Shown: piece by piece, positions 22,844 through 55,830 of the stretch
Numbering within the stretch: position 1 is the stretch's first letter
Layout of the letters: each line of letters begins with the position of its first letter
Assembly: GCF_001644605.1 (NCBI RefSeq)
Contig: NZ_CP011388.1
Coordinates: 3,810,501 to 3,874,500 of the forward strand
Length of the DNA stretch: 64,000 nt
Reading direction: 5' to 3'
Source of the DNA: Paenibacillus swuensis
Lineage (GTDB): Bacteria > Bacillota > Bacilli > Paenibacillales > DY6
The notes under the pieces: model-generated
Seen by the model: the letters and a program-made list of their open reading frames with translations, nothing else
What the model was told of the DNA's origin: nothing
Database searches by the model: none
Program-made: the position numbers and the translations under genes

Positions 22844-22978
22844 TTGACATTTACCCAGTTACGAAGTTGCTGTATAGTTCTACTTATACATAATACCAAC
22901 TAAACAACTAGGAATTGTCGACCAGACTACTGGAGATGCAACTGAACGGATGTAATGCCGGGTATGTTGTATTTTTTT
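22844..22978 (+). promoter_or_regulatory. Attenuator-like leader of the SsuD-like operon
   Basis: Possible promoter elements are TTGCTG 22867 / CATAAT 22889 (spacer 16) and TTGACA 22844. The leader has the core GACCAGACTACTGGAG (22920-22935; CCAG/CTGG hairpin) followed by a terminator: ATGCAAC (22936-22942) pairs with GTTGTAT (22966-22972), an inner CGG/CCG stem, then seven T. An upstream ACAAC (22904-22908) could pair with GTTGT instead and act as antiterminator. The gene starts 44 bases after the T run. The same core precedes the sulfatase leader terminator. I do not recognise a known riboswitch class. Confidence 0.5.
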
Positions 22979-23021: not shown

Positions 23022-24158
23022 ATGAGTGAAACCACAAAAGTCGAGTTTGGGTGGTTCATACCAACGACGGGGGACGGTGAACATATCGGTATTCCGCCGG
23101 AACGCGAATCCACTGTGGAGTACATGGTTCAGGTTGCCCAGGCAGCCGAGCAAGCAGGTTATGAATTTGCCTTAATTCCCACGGGAGGAGCGTGTCTGGA
23201 CGCTTGGGTTGTGGGTTCATGGATTGCGGCCAAGACCAAGAATTTCAAATCCCTGGTAGCCATGAGACCGGGACTAGTTGCCCCTGTATTATCGGCGCAG
23301 ATGGCGACTACGCTGGATCAGATGTCTCAAGGCCGTGTGCTCGTCAATGTGGTAACTGGCCATTATCCGGCTGATTTGAAGGCTGCGGGAGACGCGTTGG
23401 CTGAAAACCATGACGGCAGATATGAAAGAACGAGAGAGTTTCTGCAAATCGTTAGGGGAGTTTGGGATGAAGCTTCGGGAAGAACAGCCGAGACGCTAAA
23501 TTTCAAAGGGGAACATTACGAAATTGAAGGGGGTAAAGTTCGACCAGCACCTTACACGGATAGCCATCCTCCGCTATATTTCGGCGGAAGTTCACCGGCA
23601 GGTAAACAGGTAGCGGCTGAATTCGCTGACGTCTATCTCATGTGGGCCGAGCCGCTGGATTGGATTCAAGGACAGATTAACGAGATGAAGAACTACTTGG
23701 AAGAGCTAAAAAACGCCAAGGGAGCTTCACGAGAGCTTCGATACGGCATTCGGGCTCAATTAGTTGTTCGAGATAGTGAAGAAGCGGCATGGGAAGCGGC
23801 ATGGAATATTATCAGTAAGGCTGATCCCGAAATGATGAAGTCCAGAGAGAAGCTTCACAGCAAGACGGACGCGGTAAATCAGAAGCGCCAGATGGAATTG
23901 TGGGAAGAATCAAGCAACAATGATTATGTCATTGGTCCGAATTTATGGTCCGGATTGTCCGCCATCCGAGGCGGAGGGGCTGTGGCATTCGTGGGGACAC
24001 CCGAGCAGGTAACAGATCGGATTCTCGAATTCGTAGACATCGGCGTAACCTCTTTTATCCTGTCAGGGTACCCGCATTTAGAAGAAGCCGTCATTTCCGG
24101 AGATATTCTAATGCCTTTACTAAAGCGTAAATTAGCCGAGCGTGGTGTACACGTGTAA
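23022..24158 (+). CDS. SsuD-like FMNH2-dependent sulfonate monooxygenase
   Basis: A 378-residue flavin-dependent monooxygenase of the luciferase-like family, close to alkanesulfonate monooxygenase SsuD (N terminus FGWFIPTTGDGEHIG; the Cys of GACLDAWVVGSW; C-terminal GPNLWSGLSAIRGGGAVAFVG and FILSGYPHLEEA). Such enzymes use reduced flavin and oxygen to release sulfite from sulfonates. Here the neighbours are a sugar-type ABC importer rather than SsuABC, as in the sulfoquinovose monooxygenase (sulfo-ASMO) loci, so a sulfosugar is a reasonable guess for the substrate. GCGGAGGAG precedes the ATG. Confidence 0.88.
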   Translation: MSETTKVEFGWFIPTTGDGEHIGIPPERESTVEYMVQVAQAAEQAGYEFALIPTGGACLDAWVVGSWIAAKTKNFKSLVAMRPGLVAPVLSAQMATTLDQMSQGRVLVNVVTGHYPADLKAAGDALAENHDGRYERTREFLQIVRGVWDEASGRTAETLNFKGEHYEIEGGKVRPAPYTDSHPPLYFGGSSPAGKQVAAEFADVYLMWAEPLDWIQGQINEMKNYLEELKNAKGASRELRYGIRAQLVVRDSEEAAWEAAWNIISKADPEMMKSREKLHSKTDAVNQKRQMELWEESSNNDYVIGPNLWSGLSAIRGGGAVAFVGTPEQVTDRILEFVDIGVTSFILSGYPHLEEAVISGDILMPLLKRKLAERGVHV

Positions 24159-24195
24159 TGAAAACAAATGTATATTTTAAGGGAGGATTTTGTAC

Positions 24196-25515
24196 ATGAA
24201 TAAACGTTTCGTACTGTCCACAATAGCTTTGATCTTAATTGTTTTCCTTGCAGCCTGCGGCTCTGACACTAACGGGTCGGCGTCCAACAATACCAACTCA
24301 ACAGTGAAGGAAACAACACCGGAAGCAAACGAGCCTTCCAAAGATAGCGGAAAAGAAGCCGAACCGGTGAAATTAAGCTTTATCCATTGGCGGGGGGAAG
24401 ACAAGGCGGTACTGGACGGAATCATCTCCAAGTTTCAGACCGAAAATCCTGGGATCACGATTGAAACTCAGGTGTTTACTTCCGAACAGTATCAATCTAC
24501 AGCGCAAGCCAAGTTATTGGATGAATCCGTAGGAGATGTGTTTGCATCGTTTCCCGGCGCTCAATTCGAGGCCATCGTAAAAGCGGGTATATTCACGGAT
24601 CTTTCAGGGGCGCCGTTCTTAAATAACTTTACGCCAAACCTGATCCAGTCAGGCCAGAAAGACGGAAAACAATACGCTGTTCCGTATCAACTTGTATACA
24701 ACATGCCCATTTATAATGTGAAGTTGTTTGAAAAACACGGGATCGAGATCCCTAAGGACTGGGATGGTTTCCTTGCCGCCGCGGAAAAGTTGAAGCAAGC
24801 CGGTATTACACCGATTGCTTTTCCGGGAGCCGATATCGGCCCGGGTCAGTTTATGAACACGATGGTTATGAACAACGCGCCGGATGAACAGATCTTCACG
24901 AAACTGGTCAACGGGGAAGCGAAGCTGACAGAAGACTGGTGGATCAAGACATTGTCCCAGTTCAAAGAACTGAACGACAAAGGCTATTTCCAGAAGGATG
25001 CCCTGGGTACCAAAGATCAGGGTGCGGGCGCATTATTTGCCCAAGAAAAAGCGGCCATTCTGGCAACCGGCTCTTACCAGCTGGCTCAGAATAAGAAGAA
25101 TAACCCGAATCTGGTGCAAGGTTTGTTGGCGCCGATTACGGTAACAGCGGACAAGGCGGTATTCGAGGGGATTCATACCACAACATTTATGCTTGGTGTG
25201 AACAGCAAATCCAAACATCCCGAAGAAGCGAAGAAGTTTCTTGAATTCCTAAGCAGAACAGAGATTGCGGCGGAATATGCGAATGGAACGGTTCAAGGGG
25301 TTACGGTGAAAGATGTGGAATACACTAGCGAGGAATTAAAGATCGTTTCCTCATGGACTTCACGTAAAACGAGATTCCAACCGCGTTTCACGATCACGAA
25401 CACAGAGATTCAGAAAGCTGTAACGAGCTCAATCCAAGCTGTCCTTGGCGGAAAATCTCCGGAAGATGCCGCTAAAGAAGCTCAGGCGATCGTAGATCAA
25501 CAGATCAAAGGGTAA
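24196..25515 (+). CDS. Sugar-type ABC transporter solute-binding lipoprotein
   Basis: A 439-residue family 1 extracellular binding protein. The signal peptide ends in the lipobox LAAC (about C20), followed by a Ser/Asn/Thr-rich linker and the bilobal domain (SFIHWRGEDKAVLDGIISKF; FTSEQYQSTAQAKL; NVKLFEKHGIEIPKDWDGF). It binds the ligand outside the membrane for the two permeases that follow. ATG 24196 is 8 bases after GGGAGGA. It begins 37 bases after the monooxygenase gene and is probably in one operon. Confidence 0.93.
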   Translation: MNKRFVLSTIALILIVFLAACGSDTNGSASNNTNSTVKETTPEANEPSKDSGKEAEPVKLSFIHWRGEDKAVLDGIISKFQTENPGITIETQVFTSEQYQSTAQAKLLDESVGDVFASFPGAQFEAIVKAGIFTDLSGAPFLNNFTPNLIQSGQKDGKQYAVPYQLVYNMPIYNVKLFEKHGIEIPKDWDGFLAAAEKLKQAGITPIAFPGADIGPGQFMNTMVMNNAPDEQIFTKLVNGEAKLTEDWWIKTLSQFKELNDKGYFQKDALGTKDQGAGALFAQEKAAILATGSYQLAQNKKNNPNLVQGLLAPITVTADKAVFEGIHTTTFMLGVNSKSKHPEEAKKFLEFLSRTEIAAEYANGTVQGVTVKDVEYTSEELKIVSSWTSRKTRFQPRFTITNTEIQKAVTSSIQAVLGGKSPEDAAKEAQAIVDQQIKG

Positions 25516-25516
25516 T

Positions 25517-26389
25517 ATGAGAAGATCCAAACTTATCTATATATTCTTCCTGCCGGGGACTCTGTTATATCTATTCTTGTTTATTTATCCTTCGCTCACC
25601 GGCTTGTATTACTCATTTACGGATTGGGACGGTTTATCGCCGTCCTACCGTTTTGTCGGGACCGATAACTATGTACGTCTTTCTGAGGATATTGTTTTTC
25701 GAAAGGCATTCGTAAATAACCTTAAATTTATGCTTTTCGTGGTTGCTGCCCAGACTTTAATCTCATTACTATTGGCTTTAAGGCTTGCAGGAAACACCAA
25801 GGTAAATGTGGCGCTGCGGTCGCTCTACTTCATTCCGACGATTATCTCGTCCGTGGCTGTCGGATTTATCTGGACGTTTGTCTATGATCCGACGCAAGGC
25901 GCGTTAAATCTGATGTTCGCCAAAGCCGGTTTGCCGAATCTTGCGCAAAATTGGCTTGGAAATATGAATATGGCCATCTTCTCCGTTGCCGCCGTGCAAG
26001 CTTGGGCGCATATCGGACAAATGGTGATTCTGTTTGTGGCTGGGATTCAAGCTATACCCAAGGAGTTACTGGAGTCCGCCAAGCTTGACGGTGGTTCACG
26101 TCTTCAAATCTTTACGAAGATCATGTGGCCGTTACTCGCTCCTGCTGCGGCTATCGTGGTATCGTACACTACCATTCAATCCTTCAAAGCTTTCGATCTG
26201 GTGTTCACAATGACGGGTGGAGGACCAGCCTATTCTACGGAAATCTTGACAACGTTCATTTATAGTTCCGCATTTACGAATTATTCCTTTGGTTTAGCTT
26301 CCGCGGGTTCCGTAGTGTTCCTCGTTCTGATCTCAGTCATTACATTCCTGCAGTTCCGAGTGCTTCGCACCGATCGAATTACTTATTAA
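25517..26389 (+). CDS. Sugar ABC transporter permease (MalF-like)
   Basis: A 290-residue inner-membrane permease with about six helices and the ATPase-contact EAA loop ELLESAKLDGGSRLQIFTKIMWPLL (shown in part). It starts one base after the stop of the binding-protein gene, so translation is coupled. It pairs with the next permease. No ATPase gene is present; import probably uses a shared MsmX/MsmK-type ATPase encoded elsewhere. Confidence 0.93.
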   Translation: MRRSKLIYIFFLPGTLLYLFLFIYPSLTGLYYSFTDWDGLSPSYRFVGTDNYVRLSEDIVFRKAFVNNLKFMLFVVAAQTLISLLLALRLAGNTKVNVALRSLYFIPTIISSVAVGFIWTFVYDPTQGALNLMFAKAGLPNLAQNWLGNMNMAIFSVAAVQAWAHIGQMVILFVAGIQAIPKELLESAKLDGGSRLQIFTKIMWPLLAPAAAIVVSYTTIQSFKAFDLVFTMTGGGPAYSTEILTTFIYSSAFTNYSFGLASAGSVVFLVLISVITFLQFRVLRTDRITY

Positions 26390-26412
26390 ACCTTCGGAGG
26401 TGTACATACATC

Positions 26413-27228
26413 ATGTGGATTCGAATCGCCGGCTGGGGTTTACTGGCTGTATTCGCGGTTATCATACTTGGTCCTCTACTGTTGGTGTTATCCACATCGT
26501 TCAAAACCACACCACAGTTCATTACAGACCCGCTCGGGATTCCGCCGTCTCTGTCCTTTCATAACTATATAACGATTTTTCAAGGGCAGCAGATGTGGCG
26601 ATATATCAGTAACAGTGCTATTGTCACCGGAAGTTCTGTCTTTATAGAACTTGTCATTTCCGGAATGATCGCCTACGGCATCACCAGGTTAGGGCGCTTA
26701 ACAAGTACCGTCGTATTCGGATTTTTTGCCTTAGGCATGATGATTCCTTCTCAGGTGAATATTATTCCGATTTATTTACTTGTTAACCGGCTGGGGTGGA
26801 ATAACAGCTTATCCGGCTTGACCGCGGTTACAGTCGCTATGCTTATTCCATTGTCCGTGTTTATGTTAACGGGATTTATGCGAACTCTTCCAAAAGAGAT
26901 GATGGAAGCGGCATCCATCGACGGTGCGGGCGAGTGGAGGTTGTTAACACAGATTGCTGTTCCGCTGTGCGCGCCATTCTTTGCTGCGACGGCTGCTTTC
27001 TTGTTCGTCATCGTATGGAATGATTTATTGTTTCCTATGTTGCTTGTGAACGGCAGTGACAAATTAACTTTACCGCTGGCTATGTTGCGGTTTCGGGGAG
27101 AGTATGTCACGGATTATCCGATGTTATTAACGGGAGTCACGATCGCAACTATCCCCATGGTTATTATGTTTGTGTTTCTTCAACGTTACTTCATCTCAGG
27201 TACGTTGGCAGGAGCGGTCAAAGGTTAG
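26413..27228 (+). CDS. Sugar ABC transporter permease (MalG-like)
   Basis: A 271-residue permease of the carbohydrate-uptake type, with the EAA loop EMMEAASIDGAGEWRLLTQI and the C-terminal end YFISGTLAGAVKG typical of MalG-like subunits. It begins 23 bases after the first permease, after GGAGGTG. It is the last gene of the operon; a terminator follows. Confidence 0.93.
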   Translation: MWIRIAGWGLLAVFAVIILGPLLLVLSTSFKTTPQFITDPLGIPPSLSFHNYITIFQGQQMWRYISNSAIVTGSSVFIELVISGMIAYGITRLGRLTSTVVFGFFALGMMIPSQVNIIPIYLLVNRLGWNNSLSGLTAVTVAMLIPLSVFMLTGFMRTLPKEMMEAASIDGAGEWRLLTQIAVPLCAPFFAATAAFLFVIVWNDLLFPMLLVNGSDKLTLPLAMLRFRGEYVTDYPMLLTGVTIATIPMVIMFVFLQRYFISGTLAGAVKG

Positions 27229-47379: not shown

Positions 47380-47665
47380 TCTAATGACGTTGAAGAGGAA
47401 CAGTAAAATTTTCTAAGCAATCAGAGAGCTGTTGGATGGTGTGAAACAGCGGTGGAGAAAATTTGAACTCGCCTTGGAGTTGCTCGCTGAACAAGAATGT
47501 TGTAGGCGGAGCCGGAGCCTGTCCGTTATCATCAGGAGGATATAGGGTATATTTGTTAACCCGTATCTATGAGCGCATGCCGTGTAAGGCATGAATTCGG
47601 AGTGGTACCGCGTAAGATTTCACAGTCTTTCGTCTCTGTTTAGTAGAGACGAAAGACTTTTTTGC
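47380..47665 (+). promoter_or_regulatory. T-box leader (leucine) of leuA
   Basis: The T-box core GAGTGGTACCGCG is at 47600-47612 and the terminator AGTCTTTCGTCTC / GAGACGAAAGACT plus T run at 47624-47665. Stem I begins near 47385 and the specifier loop reads GAACTCGCC, where CTC (47468-47470) would be read by tRNA-Leu. Uncharged tRNA-Leu would prevent termination and raise leuA expression when leucine is short. Confidence 0.9.
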
Positions 47666-47717
47666 GTTCCGTCGGGCCAAAGAAAGGTACAATGAACTGA
47701 TGAAGGGGAGAAGAATT

Positions 47718-49373
47718 ATGAAACAAGTTGATAAATACGCCAGAGGGTATTTTGCGGCGCCGGAAACAAGCTTAAACTGGACTCGGAAGGAATATATTAC
47801 AGAGGCGCCGATATGGTGCAGTGTTGATCTTCGCGACGGGAATCAGGCATTAATTGTTCCAATGAATCTGGAGGAGAAGCTGGAATACTTTCAGATGCTC
47901 GTGGAGATCGGGTTCAAGGAAATTGAGGTGGGTTTCCCCGCGGCGTCGGAAACCGAGTTCACGTTCTTGCGCACCTTGATTGAGCAGAATCTCATCCCGG
48001 ACGATGTGACGATTCAGGTCCTGACCCAAGCGAGAGAACATATCATTCGCAGAACGTTCGAATCGCTTAAAGGCGCCAAGAAAGCGGTTGTACATTTGTA
48101 CAATTCGACTTCAGTCGCACAGCGGGAGCAGGTATTCCGTAAATCCAAGGAAGAAATTATTGAAATTGCTCTGGCCGGAGCCCACCTGTTGAAGCAATGT
48201 GCTGAGGAAACAGAAGGGAACTTCCAGTTCCAGTATTCACCGGAGAGCTTTACGGGGACAGAGATCGATTTTGCTCTGGATATATGCAATGGCGTACTTG
48301 ATGTGTGGGAACCCCGTGCGGACAACCCGGTTATTATCAACCTTCCCGCAACAGTCTCCATGTCAATGCCGCATATTTATGCCAGTCAGATTGAATATAT
48401 GAGTGAGAACCTGAAGTATCGGGAGCATGTAATTGTGTCCGTACATCCGCATAACGATCGAGGAACAGGAGTAGCCGATGCGGAGTTGGGCATACTTGCA
48501 GGTGCTCAACGGATCGAAGGCACGCTGTTCGGGAATGGTGAACGCACGGGGAATGTGGACATCGTGACGCTGGCCCTGAATATGTACTCGCATGGGGTAG
48601 ATCCTAAGTTGAATTTTGAGAATATTCCTGCAATTATTGCGGTTTATGAACGACTGACGCGTATGAGAGTAGGAGAGCGGCATCCGTATGGGGGAGAGCT
48701 TGTATTCACCGCTTTCTCGGGCTCACATCAGGATGCGATTGCCAAGGGGATGCAGTGGCGCGAAGAGGAGAAACGGGAGCATTGGTCCGTCCCTTATCTG
48801 CTCATCGATCCTATGGATATCGGCAGAACGTACGAAGGGGATATTATCCGCATCAACAGTCAGTCCGGCAAAGGAGGGATTGGGTACGTGCTGCAGCACA
48901 AGTACGGGCTCGATCTGCCGCCGAAGATGCGCGAGAACTTTGGCTATCGAGTGAAGAACGTTTCGGACCTTCAGCAGAAGGAATTGTTGGCGGATGATAT
49001 CTATGAGATTTTCACGAAGGAATATGTGAATATTGGCACGCCTGTGGAATTAATTAAATATCGGGATGCGGACCGTGAAGATGCTTCAACCATTGTGACT
49101 GTACGGATTAATGATGAAGTTCAAGAGATTACAGGGAATGGGAATGGGCGGCTTGATGCGATCAGCCGTGCATTACAAACCCATTTCGGGCTTGAGTACA
49201 GCGATTTGGTCTATAAGGAGCATGCTCTGGAAACCGGCTCGCAATCCCAAGCGATTTCGTATATCGGTATTACATCAGCGGACGGAACTGTATATTGGGG
49301 CTGTGGTATTGATGTAGATATTATGACTTCTTCTGTGAAGGCCCTGTTCAGTGCTGTTAATCAGATGATTTAA
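47718..49373 (+). CDS. leuA: 2-isopropylmalate synthase (type 2)
   Basis: A 551-residue enzyme making 2-isopropylmalate from acetyl-CoA and 2-oxoisovalerate, the first step of leucine synthesis. The N-terminal barrel has SVDLRDGNQAL and metal ligands in HPHNDRGTG, with GNGERTGNVD; the C-terminal LeuA regulatory domain ends near the stop. It belongs to the longer type 2 (fungal/actinobacterial-like) class. ATG 47718 follows AAGGGGAG by 8 bases. The T-box leader upstream controls it; no other leu gene follows. Confidence 0.95.
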   Translation: MKQVDKYARGYFAAPETSLNWTRKEYITEAPIWCSVDLRDGNQALIVPMNLEEKLEYFQMLVEIGFKEIEVGFPAASETEFTFLRTLIEQNLIPDDVTIQVLTQAREHIIRRTFESLKGAKKAVVHLYNSTSVAQREQVFRKSKEEIIEIALAGAHLLKQCAEETEGNFQFQYSPESFTGTEIDFALDICNGVLDVWEPRADNPVIINLPATVSMSMPHIYASQIEYMSENLKYREHVIVSVHPHNDRGTGVADAELGILAGAQRIEGTLFGNGERTGNVDIVTLALNMYSHGVDPKLNFENIPAIIAVYERLTRMRVGERHPYGGELVFTAFSGSHQDAIAKGMQWREEEKREHWSVPYLLIDPMDIGRTYEGDIIRINSQSGKGGIGYVLQHKYGLDLPPKMRENFGYRVKNVSDLQQKELLADDIYEIFTKEYVNIGTPVELIKYRDADREDASTIVTVRINDEVQEITGNGNGRLDAISRALQTHFGLEYSDLVYKEHALETGSQSQAISYIGITSADGTVYWGCGIDVDIMTSSVKALFSAVNQMI

Positions 49374-53969: not shown

Positions 53970-55568
53970 TTATTGTGGAATCGTCTCCTCGGCATCACGA
54001 AGTGCCTGACCTGAAGCATTTTTTAAATTGTTAATCCAGGTGTCTAGCTTGCGCTTGAGAACCGGGTCGGCGGTAGTTAAAGCATTATAGGAATTATTGA
54101 GCTGATAAGGATCTGCCTTCAGGTCATATAGCTCATGTTCTCCCGTATCATAAGAGACATAGTTCAATGGACCATATGTTTTGACAGCGGTAGTGATGAC
54201 CGGTTTGACCCTCAGTCCGAGGTACACAGGTGCACCGCCTTTAGCAATTGCTTGGACGTCGTTAGGATCCTGTGGCTCCAATAAACCGTTTGAAGTATTA
54301 CTATTCAGCGTACTCGGACCGGCATGTTCATTTAACAGCGCAAGTCGCCACACTGAAGGTGTATTACCCTTTAGGAACGGTACCAGAGATCTGCCATCCA
54401 CAAAGTTTGGCGGAGTAATTCCGGCCAGGGCGGCAAAGGTTGTTGCAAGATCTATGTGTGCTGTAAAGTTATTGACTACCTGACCTGCAGGTACGCCTGG
54501 GCCGCGTATAATGAGGGGAACGTTAAGGTCCTCTTCAAAGGCTGTATTTTTACCTGAATCCAGGCGGTGCTGTCCTTGGTGAAAGCCGTTGTCAGAAGTA
54601 AAGACAATGTAAGTATTATCAATAATACCTTGAGCCGTCAGAGTGTCGATTACATTACGAACAAGGTCTGTTACTGCTAGAAGAGATTCCCTGCGCTTAA
54701 CATAGAAATCGTCAATATTCTGGATCTGGTTGGCAGTCAGGAGCGGCTTGTTCTTGACCCATTCCGGTTTATCACTTACATCAGCCTCGTTAAATGACGG
54801 TGTACGCGGAGCCTTTTCGCCTGCGTATTTACCGGCATGACGTGATGGAGGTGTTGCGGGTCCATGAGGTAAATAAGGAGCGACCCAGGTGAAAAAAGGT
54901 TTGTTCGGATAATTGGTGGTCGAGTTCTTTATGAAGGTCGTAAGTTTTTTCGAGATTACGTCGGTGCCATAATCGGCATCCGTATTGCCATAGGTGACAA
55001 TGTTACCGTTATCGTTAACACTGTAATTGTATTGAGCATACGGGGTCCCGCCGATCGGGCTAAACCAACGAGTCCAGCCTGGGGGGATATAGGTATTAGA
55101 AGGTGCACCGTTGGGGTAGCCATTCAGGTACTTGCCGAAAAATGCCGTTCTGTATCCTGCATCCTGGAGCCAGGTACCGATTGTGGAGTTCTCCAAACCT
55201 TTGCTATACACCGTCTGGAAGCCTCCGCCGCTGGCAGCGTCATTCGTATAAATTCCCGTGTTGTGAGCGTACTGTCCTCTCAGGGTTGAAGTCCGAGATG
55301 GGCAGCAGAGGGAAAGCTCAACGAAATGTTTGTCGAACTTGGTTCCCTTCTGGGTCAGGAGCGATTGAAGGCCGGCATCTTTAGCAAAAACATCCTCGTT
55401 GAGATCATCGGTTAGAATAAAGACGATGTTAGGTTGGGTCGGTGCAGCCAATGCCTTCTTCGTCGTAAGGTTATCACCGGAGTAGATGAGGCCGGAGAGC
55501 AGGGCAAGCACCAATATCAGCGTTATGATCCATCTTCGGGAATAGAAATTAAAATTTAATATGTTCAT
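53970..55568 (-). CDS. Secreted sulfatase
   Basis: A 532-residue type I sulfatase with an N-terminal membrane/signal segment (residues 11-30). The formylglycine site is C88 in CCPSR, followed by TSTLRGQYAHN; metal ligands are D54/D55 (LTDD) and the Asp-Asn of TSDNGFHQGQHR. It would cut sulfate esters outside the cell; the Cys-type site needs a formylglycine-generating enzyme, not seen here. ATG 55568 follows GAGGTTG by 7 bases. A long leader with a terminator precedes it. Confidence 0.9.
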   Translation of the reverse strand: MNILNFNFYSRRWIITLILVLALLSGLIYSGDNLTTKKALAAPTQPNIVFILTDDLNEDVFAKDAGLQSLLTQKGTKFDKHFVELSLCCPSRTSTLRGQYAHNTGIYTNDAASGGGFQTVYSKGLENSTIGTWLQDAGYRTAFFGKYLNGYPNGAPSNTYIPPGWTRWFSPIGGTPYAQYNYSVNDNGNIVTYGNTDADYGTDVISKKLTTFIKNSTTNYPNKPFFTWVAPYLPHGPATPPSRHAGKYAGEKAPRTPSFNEADVSDKPEWVKNKPLLTANQIQNIDDFYVKRRESLLAVTDLVRNVIDTLTAQGIIDNTYIVFTSDNGFHQGQHRLDSGKNTAFEEDLNVPLIIRGPGVPAGQVVNNFTAHIDLATTFAALAGITPPNFVDGRSLVPFLKGNTPSVWRLALLNEHAGPSTLNSNTSNGLLEPQDPNDVQAIAKGGAPVYLGLRVKPVITTAVKTYGPLNYVSYDTGEHELYDLKADPYQLNNSYNALTTADPVLKRKLDTWINNLKNASGQALRDAEETIPQ

Positions 55569-55642
55569 CAACACAACCTCGCTTTCGTATTATCAAAAAT
55601 AAAAATCCATTACCTCATTCTTCTCAACCATCAGTGGTCAAG

Positions 55643-55830
55643 AAAAAAGAGGCCAAGGAAATTTCCCTTAACCTCCAGTGATCTGGTCAGCTCATCGCTA
55701 CTTAAAAGTTGGATAAAGCAAGTTATCAGGATTTAAAGATGTTATACTTCTGCAAATCACCACCTAATCCTATGTAATTACTATGATTTAAATTCAGTTA
55801 CATATTATTACAGTATTGAATCAGTGTCAA
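55643..55830 (-). promoter_or_regulatory. Promoter and attenuator-like leader of the sulfatase gene
   Basis: On the minus strand, TTGACA (55825-55830) and TAATAT (55802-55807) are 17 bases apart; transcription would begin near 55795. About 105 bases later comes the core GACCAGATCACTGGAG (55673-55688), then a terminator: GAGGTTAAGG (55666-55675) pairs with CCTTGGCCTC (55649-55658), followed by six T. The start codon is 75 bases further. No gene ends here, so the terminator belongs to the leader. The core is shared with the SsuD-like operon leader. Confidence 0.6.

Follow-up and report, generated by a model that had tools for sequence, protein, structure and literature searches.

The leaders of a monooxygenase and a sulfatase gene

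The window analysed here, a stretch of 64,000 nucleotides of the Paenibacillus swuensis genome (contig NZ_CP011388.1, positions 3,810,501 to 3,874,500), contains an SsuD-like monooxygenase gene and a sulfatase-family gene, whose leaders lie about 32 kb apart. The features of both loci, numbered from the first letter of the window, are:

22893-22915, + strand: ATACC-N13-GGAAT dyad, a possible CymR-type DNA operator (from the sequence, and from the enrichment of GGAAT-type sites upstream of motif copies)
22916-22919, + strand: 5' strand (UGUC) of stem P1, pairing with 22935-22938 (C-G, U-A, G-U, U-G); P1 covaries in the family
22920-22921, + strand: unpaired conserved GA of the internal loop, facing A22934 (conservation in 83 sequences)
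22922-22933, + strand: stem P2 (CCAG/CUGG) with tetraloop ACUA; pairing is kept despite sequence change in relatives
22935-22978, + strand: intrinsic terminator, its 5' arm starting with the P1 3' strand (fold of -11.5 kcal/mol; U run at 22972-22978)
23022-24158, + strand: SsuD-like luciferase-family monooxygenase, first gene after the attenuator (NCBIfam alkanesulfonate monooxygenase models)
24190-27228, + strand: sugar-type ABC transporter, a binding protein and two permeases (NCBIfam matches)
53970-55574, - strand: sulfatase-family gene (NCBIfam arylsulfatase and choline-sulfatase matches)
55648-55676, - strand: terminator of the sulfatase leader, overlapping the P1 3' strand (13 pairs, then a T run)
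55669-55693, - strand: second copy of the hairpin, in the sulfatase leader (covariance-model score 32.0 bits)
55802-55830, - strand: promoter-like site of the sulfatase leader, TTGACA-N17-TAATAT (consensus scan, 10 of 12)

A preliminary description of this DNA had noticed a 16-base core in the SsuD-like leader, had recognised it again in the sulfatase leader and had placed it immediately before a terminator. All of this holds: the core GACCAGACTACTGGAG is located at 22920-22935 (+) and GACCAGATCACTGGAG at 55673-55688 (-), and both directly adjoin an intrinsic terminator on the 3' side (22935-22978, and 55676-55648 on the minus strand). Exact matches to GACCAGANNACTGGAG occur twice in the window and in none of 100 shuffled versions of it, and the two window copies are the only exact ones in the whole 5.01 Mb genome.

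The SsuD-like product matches the NCBIfam alkanesulfonate monooxygenase models at 1.5e-107 and the sulfatase-family product those of arylsulfatase (1.5e-28) and choline-sulfatase (4e-26), yet all matches stay under the equivalog cut-offs. Judging by the short intergenic gaps, the transporter genes probably belong to the same operon as the SsuD-like gene. At 23022-27228 (+) the monooxygenase is thus followed by a sugar-type ABC transporter and not by SsuABC, which suggests, as an inference, that the operon imports a sulfonated sugar such as sulfoquinovose.

A covarying hairpin sharing bases with the terminator

The element is a hairpin of about 25 nt, consisting of a covarying stem P1, a G-A/A internal loop, a covarying stem P2 of 4 bp and a loop of 4-5 nt starting with A. 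Among 83 sequences, A7 and A20 are invariant and G6 is found in more than 90%. In a set of sequences picked by core sequence and terminator, so that the P1 flanks played no role in selection, 22 cells of P1 were changed on both sides compared with 10.1 in shuffles, and none of 500 shuffles reached as high a value. P2 covaries too, as seen in an enlarged set; most members of that set had passed a pairing filter, and its P1 counts are therefore biased. G-U pairs are frequent in the stems (at one pair, UG occurs in 40 of 81 sequences). The preliminary description had inferred a common regulatory RNA from the two leaders alone, a proposal that gains support from this covarying hairpin, which precedes sulfur genes in many relatives.

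Out of 106 copies examined, 91 possess both stems as well as a terminator; for 81 of these 91, all five bases of the P1 3' strand lie inside the terminator stem. Since the P1 3' strand is also the 5' arm of the terminator, hairpin and terminator should be mutually exclusive. Folding renders the terminator more stable than the hairpin in all nine copies found in the P. swuensis genome, so that termination should be the default. It had been suggested earlier that an upstream ACAAC (22904-22908) competes for the terminator arm in the SsuD-like leader; this sequence is not shared, and in other copies it is the P1 flanks of the core that compete. Nearly all copies have one hairpin per terminator. 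In Kurthia massiliensis (L036:3325-3410), two tandem motif copies lie ahead of a single monooxygenase gene.

Neither is the loose similarity conserved that had been noted in the 12 bases further upstream; what recurs instead is a GGAAT-type site, found upstream of the motif in 42 of 135 leaders (18 expected), and in the form [AT]CC-N2-14-GGAAT upstream of 20 (4.1 expected). The dyad of the SsuD-like leader resembles a CymR box, and CymR exerts its control at the DNA level. The position of these sites near the promoter suggests a second, DNA-level control of the same kind. Such sites, together with the fact that CCAG-N4-CTGG is a palindrome in DNA, might also be taken to mean that the core itself is the operator of a transcription factor and that its proximity to a terminator is incidental. 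We regard this as highly improbable: P1 and P2 covary as RNA stems, in which G-U pairs are common, and the overlap of P1 with the terminator disfavours it as well.

Distribution and regulon

An exact-pattern scan of a collection with one genome per species yielded at least 120 loci, a mixture of true copies and chance matches in coding sequence, which were sorted by terminator, P1 and a neighbouring yezD gene. In about 20 of the matches listed, which come from Bacillota, Spirochaetes and Desulfobacterota, an intrinsic terminator follows the core directly; the genes behind it, named by eye from their sequences, encode SsuA/B/C-like transporters, LLM/SsuD-like monooxygenases, CysH, O-acetylhomoserine sulfhydrylase, MetN and one NifB-like protein. 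The preliminary description would have been refuted by absence of the core from related genomes. In covariance-model searches, however, it turns up in 227 of 298 genomes from this order when the threshold is loose (E<=1), and at E<=0.01 in 70 of 146 Bacilli genera.

The P. swuensis genome itself contains nine copies at E<0.8 with the refined model, including both window leaders. Going by sequence, these copies are followed by an epimerase-like TIM-barrel gene together with one of the Gfo/Idh type, by SsuA together with an SsuD-like gene, by the SsuD-like operon and the sulfatase of the window, by a binding protein of the sulfate type, by a LysR regulator together with a solute-binding protein, by SsuB together with SsuA, by an LLM monooxygenase, and by TauD. 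By this assignment, recognisable or likely sulfur genes stand behind eight of the nine, the epimerase-like operon having no evident sulfur role. Three weaker model matches in this genome have no sulfur-gene context.

Filtering all retrieved loci for hairpin and terminator left 169 distinct loci, a few of them due to chance, and more than 150 copies beyond those of P. swuensis precede cysH, metN, metY, ssu and similar genes. Sulfur-type families dominate the 118 downstream proteins, the commonest Pfam families being luciferase-like monooxygenases (17), ABC ATPases (16), NMT1-type binding proteins (11), FMN reductases (8), permeases (8), SBP_bac_11 binding proteins (6), PAPS reductase (3), TauD (3) and Cys/Met PLP enzymes (3); LysR and AraC regulators are present too. 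Genes freeing sulfur from organic compounds, to which the regulon had originally been assigned, are indeed part of it. As far as the predicted gene functions go, the regulon is wider, covering sulfonate, sulfate, sulfatase, cysteine and methionine genes and thus also sulfate uptake, cysH and metN.

Could the two leaders be alike merely by chance? In the 257-Gb collection, chance alone should produce a 14-base pattern about 1,900 times, and many exact matches among those listed fall in coding sequence. For the leaders themselves this explanation can practically be dismissed, being refuted by the window shuffles, by a genome with nine copies of which eight precede sulfur genes, and by the covariation of the stems.

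Several copies deserve mention in their own right. Those preceding a NifB-like gene in Geobacter (L094:2829-2853) and a heavy-metal-type P-type ATPase in Clostridium luticellarii (L039:3305-3329) lie outside ordinary sulfur supply. In four Pseudomonas loci (L013:1510-1525, L037:7033-7048, L059:6153-6168, L116:3574-3589), the exact core spans the junction of two similar acyl-CoA-dehydrogenase/SfnB-like genes, where its GGAG is positioned as a ribosome-binding site and no terminator is seen; these cores could reflect orthology rather than a switch. Copies directly behind yezD in Verrucomicrobia (L006:1878-1893, -) and Acidobacteria (L117:251-266, +) show no obvious T run, hence control there may not be intrinsic termination.

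Comparison with known RNA families

The earlier remark that no known riboswitch class has this core was followed up with Rfam 15, in which no family exceeds its gathering score at the window leaders or at the other motif loci scanned; the best sub-threshold match at the leader is a chance match to U6. The SAM-I riboswitch (S box, RF00162) has no match anywhere in the window, both leaders included. This riboswitch is likewise an attenuator of sulfur genes, and it lies upstream of yezD in ten Bacilli loci, but it has a far larger fold than the element. A T-box (RF00230) can be rejected, as the only one in the window (47381-47640, +, 115.6 bits) is situated ahead of an ORF at 47700-49373 and not at the leaders. 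The PyrR-binding site (RF00515) matches neither the window leaders nor the motif loci scanned, and its sole match in the P. swuensis genome (G000:C1:3438862) is not at a motif copy. ANTAR-dependent leaders require two hairpins with hexanucleotide loops, whereas the element is one hairpin with a loop of 4-5 nt in nearly all copies.

The closest resemblance in proposed mechanism is to the RNA antiterminator (RAT) of the BglG/LicT/SacY systems, where a hairpin of about 30 nt overlaps a terminator's 5' arm and, when held by its protein, permits read-through. The trait in common is an antiterminator hairpin sharing bases with that arm, a likeness of mechanism and not of membership: the element is smaller, its core differs from what we take to be the RAT consensus, YezD (see below) has no CAT or PRD domain, and the genes concern sulfur, not sugar.

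The RNA itself may have been glimpsed before, since a survey mentions a terminator-linked attenuator in bacilli that a sulfonate ABC transporter operon shares with a further gene (Naville and Gautheret 2010; PMC2965389). This may be the same RNA; the accessible part of that text gives it no name, structure, wider regulon or protein partner. For Bacillus methanolicus, PyrR sites (RF00515) have been described that follow SAM riboswitches and precede ssuACB, metNPQ and an MFS gene (PMC4342826). The architecture is the one described here, and as the motif loci scanned never reach RF00515, these sites may be mis-called copies of the element. Apart from the hint of 2010, the literature on sulfonate-leader RNAs, on yezD with cysH and on YezD generally yielded only incidental mentions, the main texts of RNA-discovery surveys, as far as accessible, contained no such motif, and a link between YezD and the element was not found in the searchable literature.

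Association with yezD

The gene most closely linked to the element is yezD, encoding a protein of the DUF2292 family (PF10055). PF10055 is present in all 19 genomes reached via motif loci and in only one of 14 control genomes. In 399 Bacilli genomes, the motif (E<=0.01) occurs in 137, PF10055 in 157 and both in 120 (odds ratio 43, p 6e-49), compared with an odds ratio of 6.9 for SsuA as a control family; within SsuA-positive Bacilli genomes the odds ratio of motif and yezD still is 47, and among yezD-negative ones SsuA has no significant effect on the motif. It should be noted that such p-values overstate independence, because the genomes are related. The repetition in another phylum helps here: in Desulfobacterota, the motif is found in 12 of 13 yezD-positive genomes, and the seven genomes with the best-scoring motifs are all yezD-positive.

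The linkage extends to gene order. Among the genomes listed with both, 34 of 73 have yezD at most 350 nt upstream of the motif on the same strand, and the order of yezD and then element recurs in Verrucomicrobia (93 nt apart), an Acidiferrales (Acidobacteria) MAG (66 nt), Thermodesulfobacteriota (55 nt), Bacterium HR12 (54 nt), Tissierellales (18 nt), Thermoactinomyces (9 and 23 nt) and also Treponema. Twenty yezD-positive genomes were re-examined, 19 of Bacilli, most of them motif-negative at the first threshold, and one of Desulfobacterota; a diverged element was found near yezD in 13, with P2 often CUAG/CUAG and a 5-nt loop. The ten Bacilli loci with an upstream SAM riboswitch mentioned above belong to this set, and a Cytobacillus plasmid again carries a SAM riboswitch before yezD, with cysH following. 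Many Bacillaceae-type loci thus have the order SAM riboswitch, yezD, element, cysH or metN. Several Paenibacillus-type yezD genes in the re-examined loci have no element beside them; in P. swuensis, yezD lies about 2.2 kb behind the motif copy at the sulfate-binding protein gene. The family search also detected DUF2292 in Bacillus subtilis 168.

A search for the unpaired signature only, in the 320 nt downstream of 73 distinct yezD genes, returned fully paired hairpins for 45 genes and none on the reverse strand or in 50 shuffles. The hairpins comprise 11 combinations of P2 sequence and loop length, all of them paired. The fraction of 45 in 73 is no estimate of frequency, since many loci had been retrieved through the motif.

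Two observations stand apart. In a Tissierellales MAG (L025:3134-3548), the exact core lies between two diverged YezD paralogues with IQN instead of VHD, one of which scores just at the Pfam cut-off. On Priestia plasmids (L388, L389, L391), yezD is found outside sulfur operons, and some 0.7 kb from each of these genes the opposite strand carries a diverged hairpin (CUUG/CAAG).

These data bear on what operates the switch. The preliminary description had left the choice between a riboswitch and a protein-bound attenuator; the attenuator stands, and the tight link with yezD favours the protein-bound option. That the hairpin is instead a very small riboswitch for a sulfur metabolite, with yezD merely another gene of the regulon, is unlikely but deserves consideration, given the conserved unpaired bases of its internal loop, the general frequency of metabolite-responsive attenuators and a SAM riboswitch acting in the same operons. 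A single simple hairpin with only about four conserved unpaired positions speaks against it, as does the finding that yezD is a better predictor of the motif than a gene for a sulfonate transporter. No more credible is a different, unidentified protein as the binder, YezD being co-inherited for another role in sulfur metabolism. Yet co-occurrence of proteins could not be scanned genome-wide without bias, and 17 of the 137 motif-positive Bacilli genomes, six of them at E<=2e-5, lack a detected yezD; opposed to this are the gene order, in which yezD immediately precedes the element in several phyla, and the strong association within SsuA-positive genomes.

YezD and its relative OscA

The YezD protein of P. 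swuensis, whose domain is encoded at G000:C1:3966373-3966483, meets the requirements for DUF2292 membership (PF10055, 57.9 bits; gathering cut-off 22). Members are small and basic (median 62 aa, median pI 9.1), with an invariant Gly, near-invariant Gln, Glu and Arg, and a cysteine in only three of 58. One helix and one beta hairpin are predicted (mean pLDDT 76); neither a fold search with this model nor a search for solved relatives gave a usable structural match or a detectable RNA-binding relative.

OscA of Pseudomonas (NF033785) is likewise a small DUF2292-type protein linked to sulfur starvation. YezD matches the OscA model with E 3e-10 and 39.9 bits, under the equivalog cut-off of 85, and is accordingly a distant relative of OscA without being its equivalog. 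Viti et al. reportedly described OscA as a sulfur starvation response protein of Pseudomonas in 2009. Despite this tie it is presented, in the accessible parts of two papers, as a small protein of unknown function, which is co-transcribed with a sulfate-binding protein gene and whose inactivation renders Pseudomonas corrugata chromate-sensitive (PMC2996968, PMC3596284); these parts mention no RNA element. Two Novosphingobium DUF2292 loci likewise have no convincing element nearby, in which these homologues differ from YezD.

A putative protein-dependent switch in sulfur starvation

We consider it nearly certain that the element is a conserved transcription attenuator of a bacterial sulfur-starvation regulon and that the leader in the window is one copy of it. 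Sequence comparison supports a covarying conserved hairpin that overlaps the terminator, a regulon of sulfur genes and the linkage to yezD. YezD as the RNA-binding factor, read-through as the consequence of binding and the identity of the signal are inferred, in the absence of binding, termination or induction data. Speaking against YezD in this role are the 17 motif-positive Bacilli genomes without a detected yezD, the Paenibacillus-type and Novosphingobium genes that have no element nearby, and the missing RNA-binding relative.

According to this model, the nascent leader would fold either as the small hairpin or as the intrinsic terminator, which uses the P1 3' strand as its 5' arm, and unaided the far more stable terminator would win. 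When sulfur is short, YezD, basic and of about 60 aa, would bind the conserved unpaired bases and hold P1 shut, allowing RNA polymerase to read through into genes for the supply of sulfonate, sulfate-ester, sulfate and cysteine/methionine; in the window, the switch would control the SsuD-like operon as well as the sulfatase about 32 kb away. The putative targets are the internal-loop bases G6, A7 and A20 and the base with which the hairpin loop starts, proposed because the paired bases vary. The hairpin is synthesised before the terminator and precludes it when held; a protein binding to the hairpin would therefore give read-through, which suits sulfur limitation. The element travels so closely with yezD that YezD probably flips the switch, and we are fairly confident, on inference alone, that under sulfur limitation it binds to the hairpin and keeps transcription from terminating. 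With slightly more reserve, we also think it likely that YezD represents an unrecognised family of RNA-binding antitermination proteins of about 60 aa, acting via the hairpin as a global sulfur-starvation regulator in several phyla, and that many Bacilli employ a relay from a SAM riboswitch via yezD to the attenuator of cysH or metN.

What emerges is an RNA element of sulfur scavenging outside Rfam, simple in structure and present at up to nine operons in one genome, together with a proposed function for YezD, whose family so far is without one. If the proposal is true, it would provide a molecular function for DUF2292 and possibly for OscA. Were YezD indeed the ligand of the hairpin, few antitermination proteins would be smaller, and the succession of SAM riboswitch, yezD and attenuator would represent a riboswitch feeding a protein-RNA switch.
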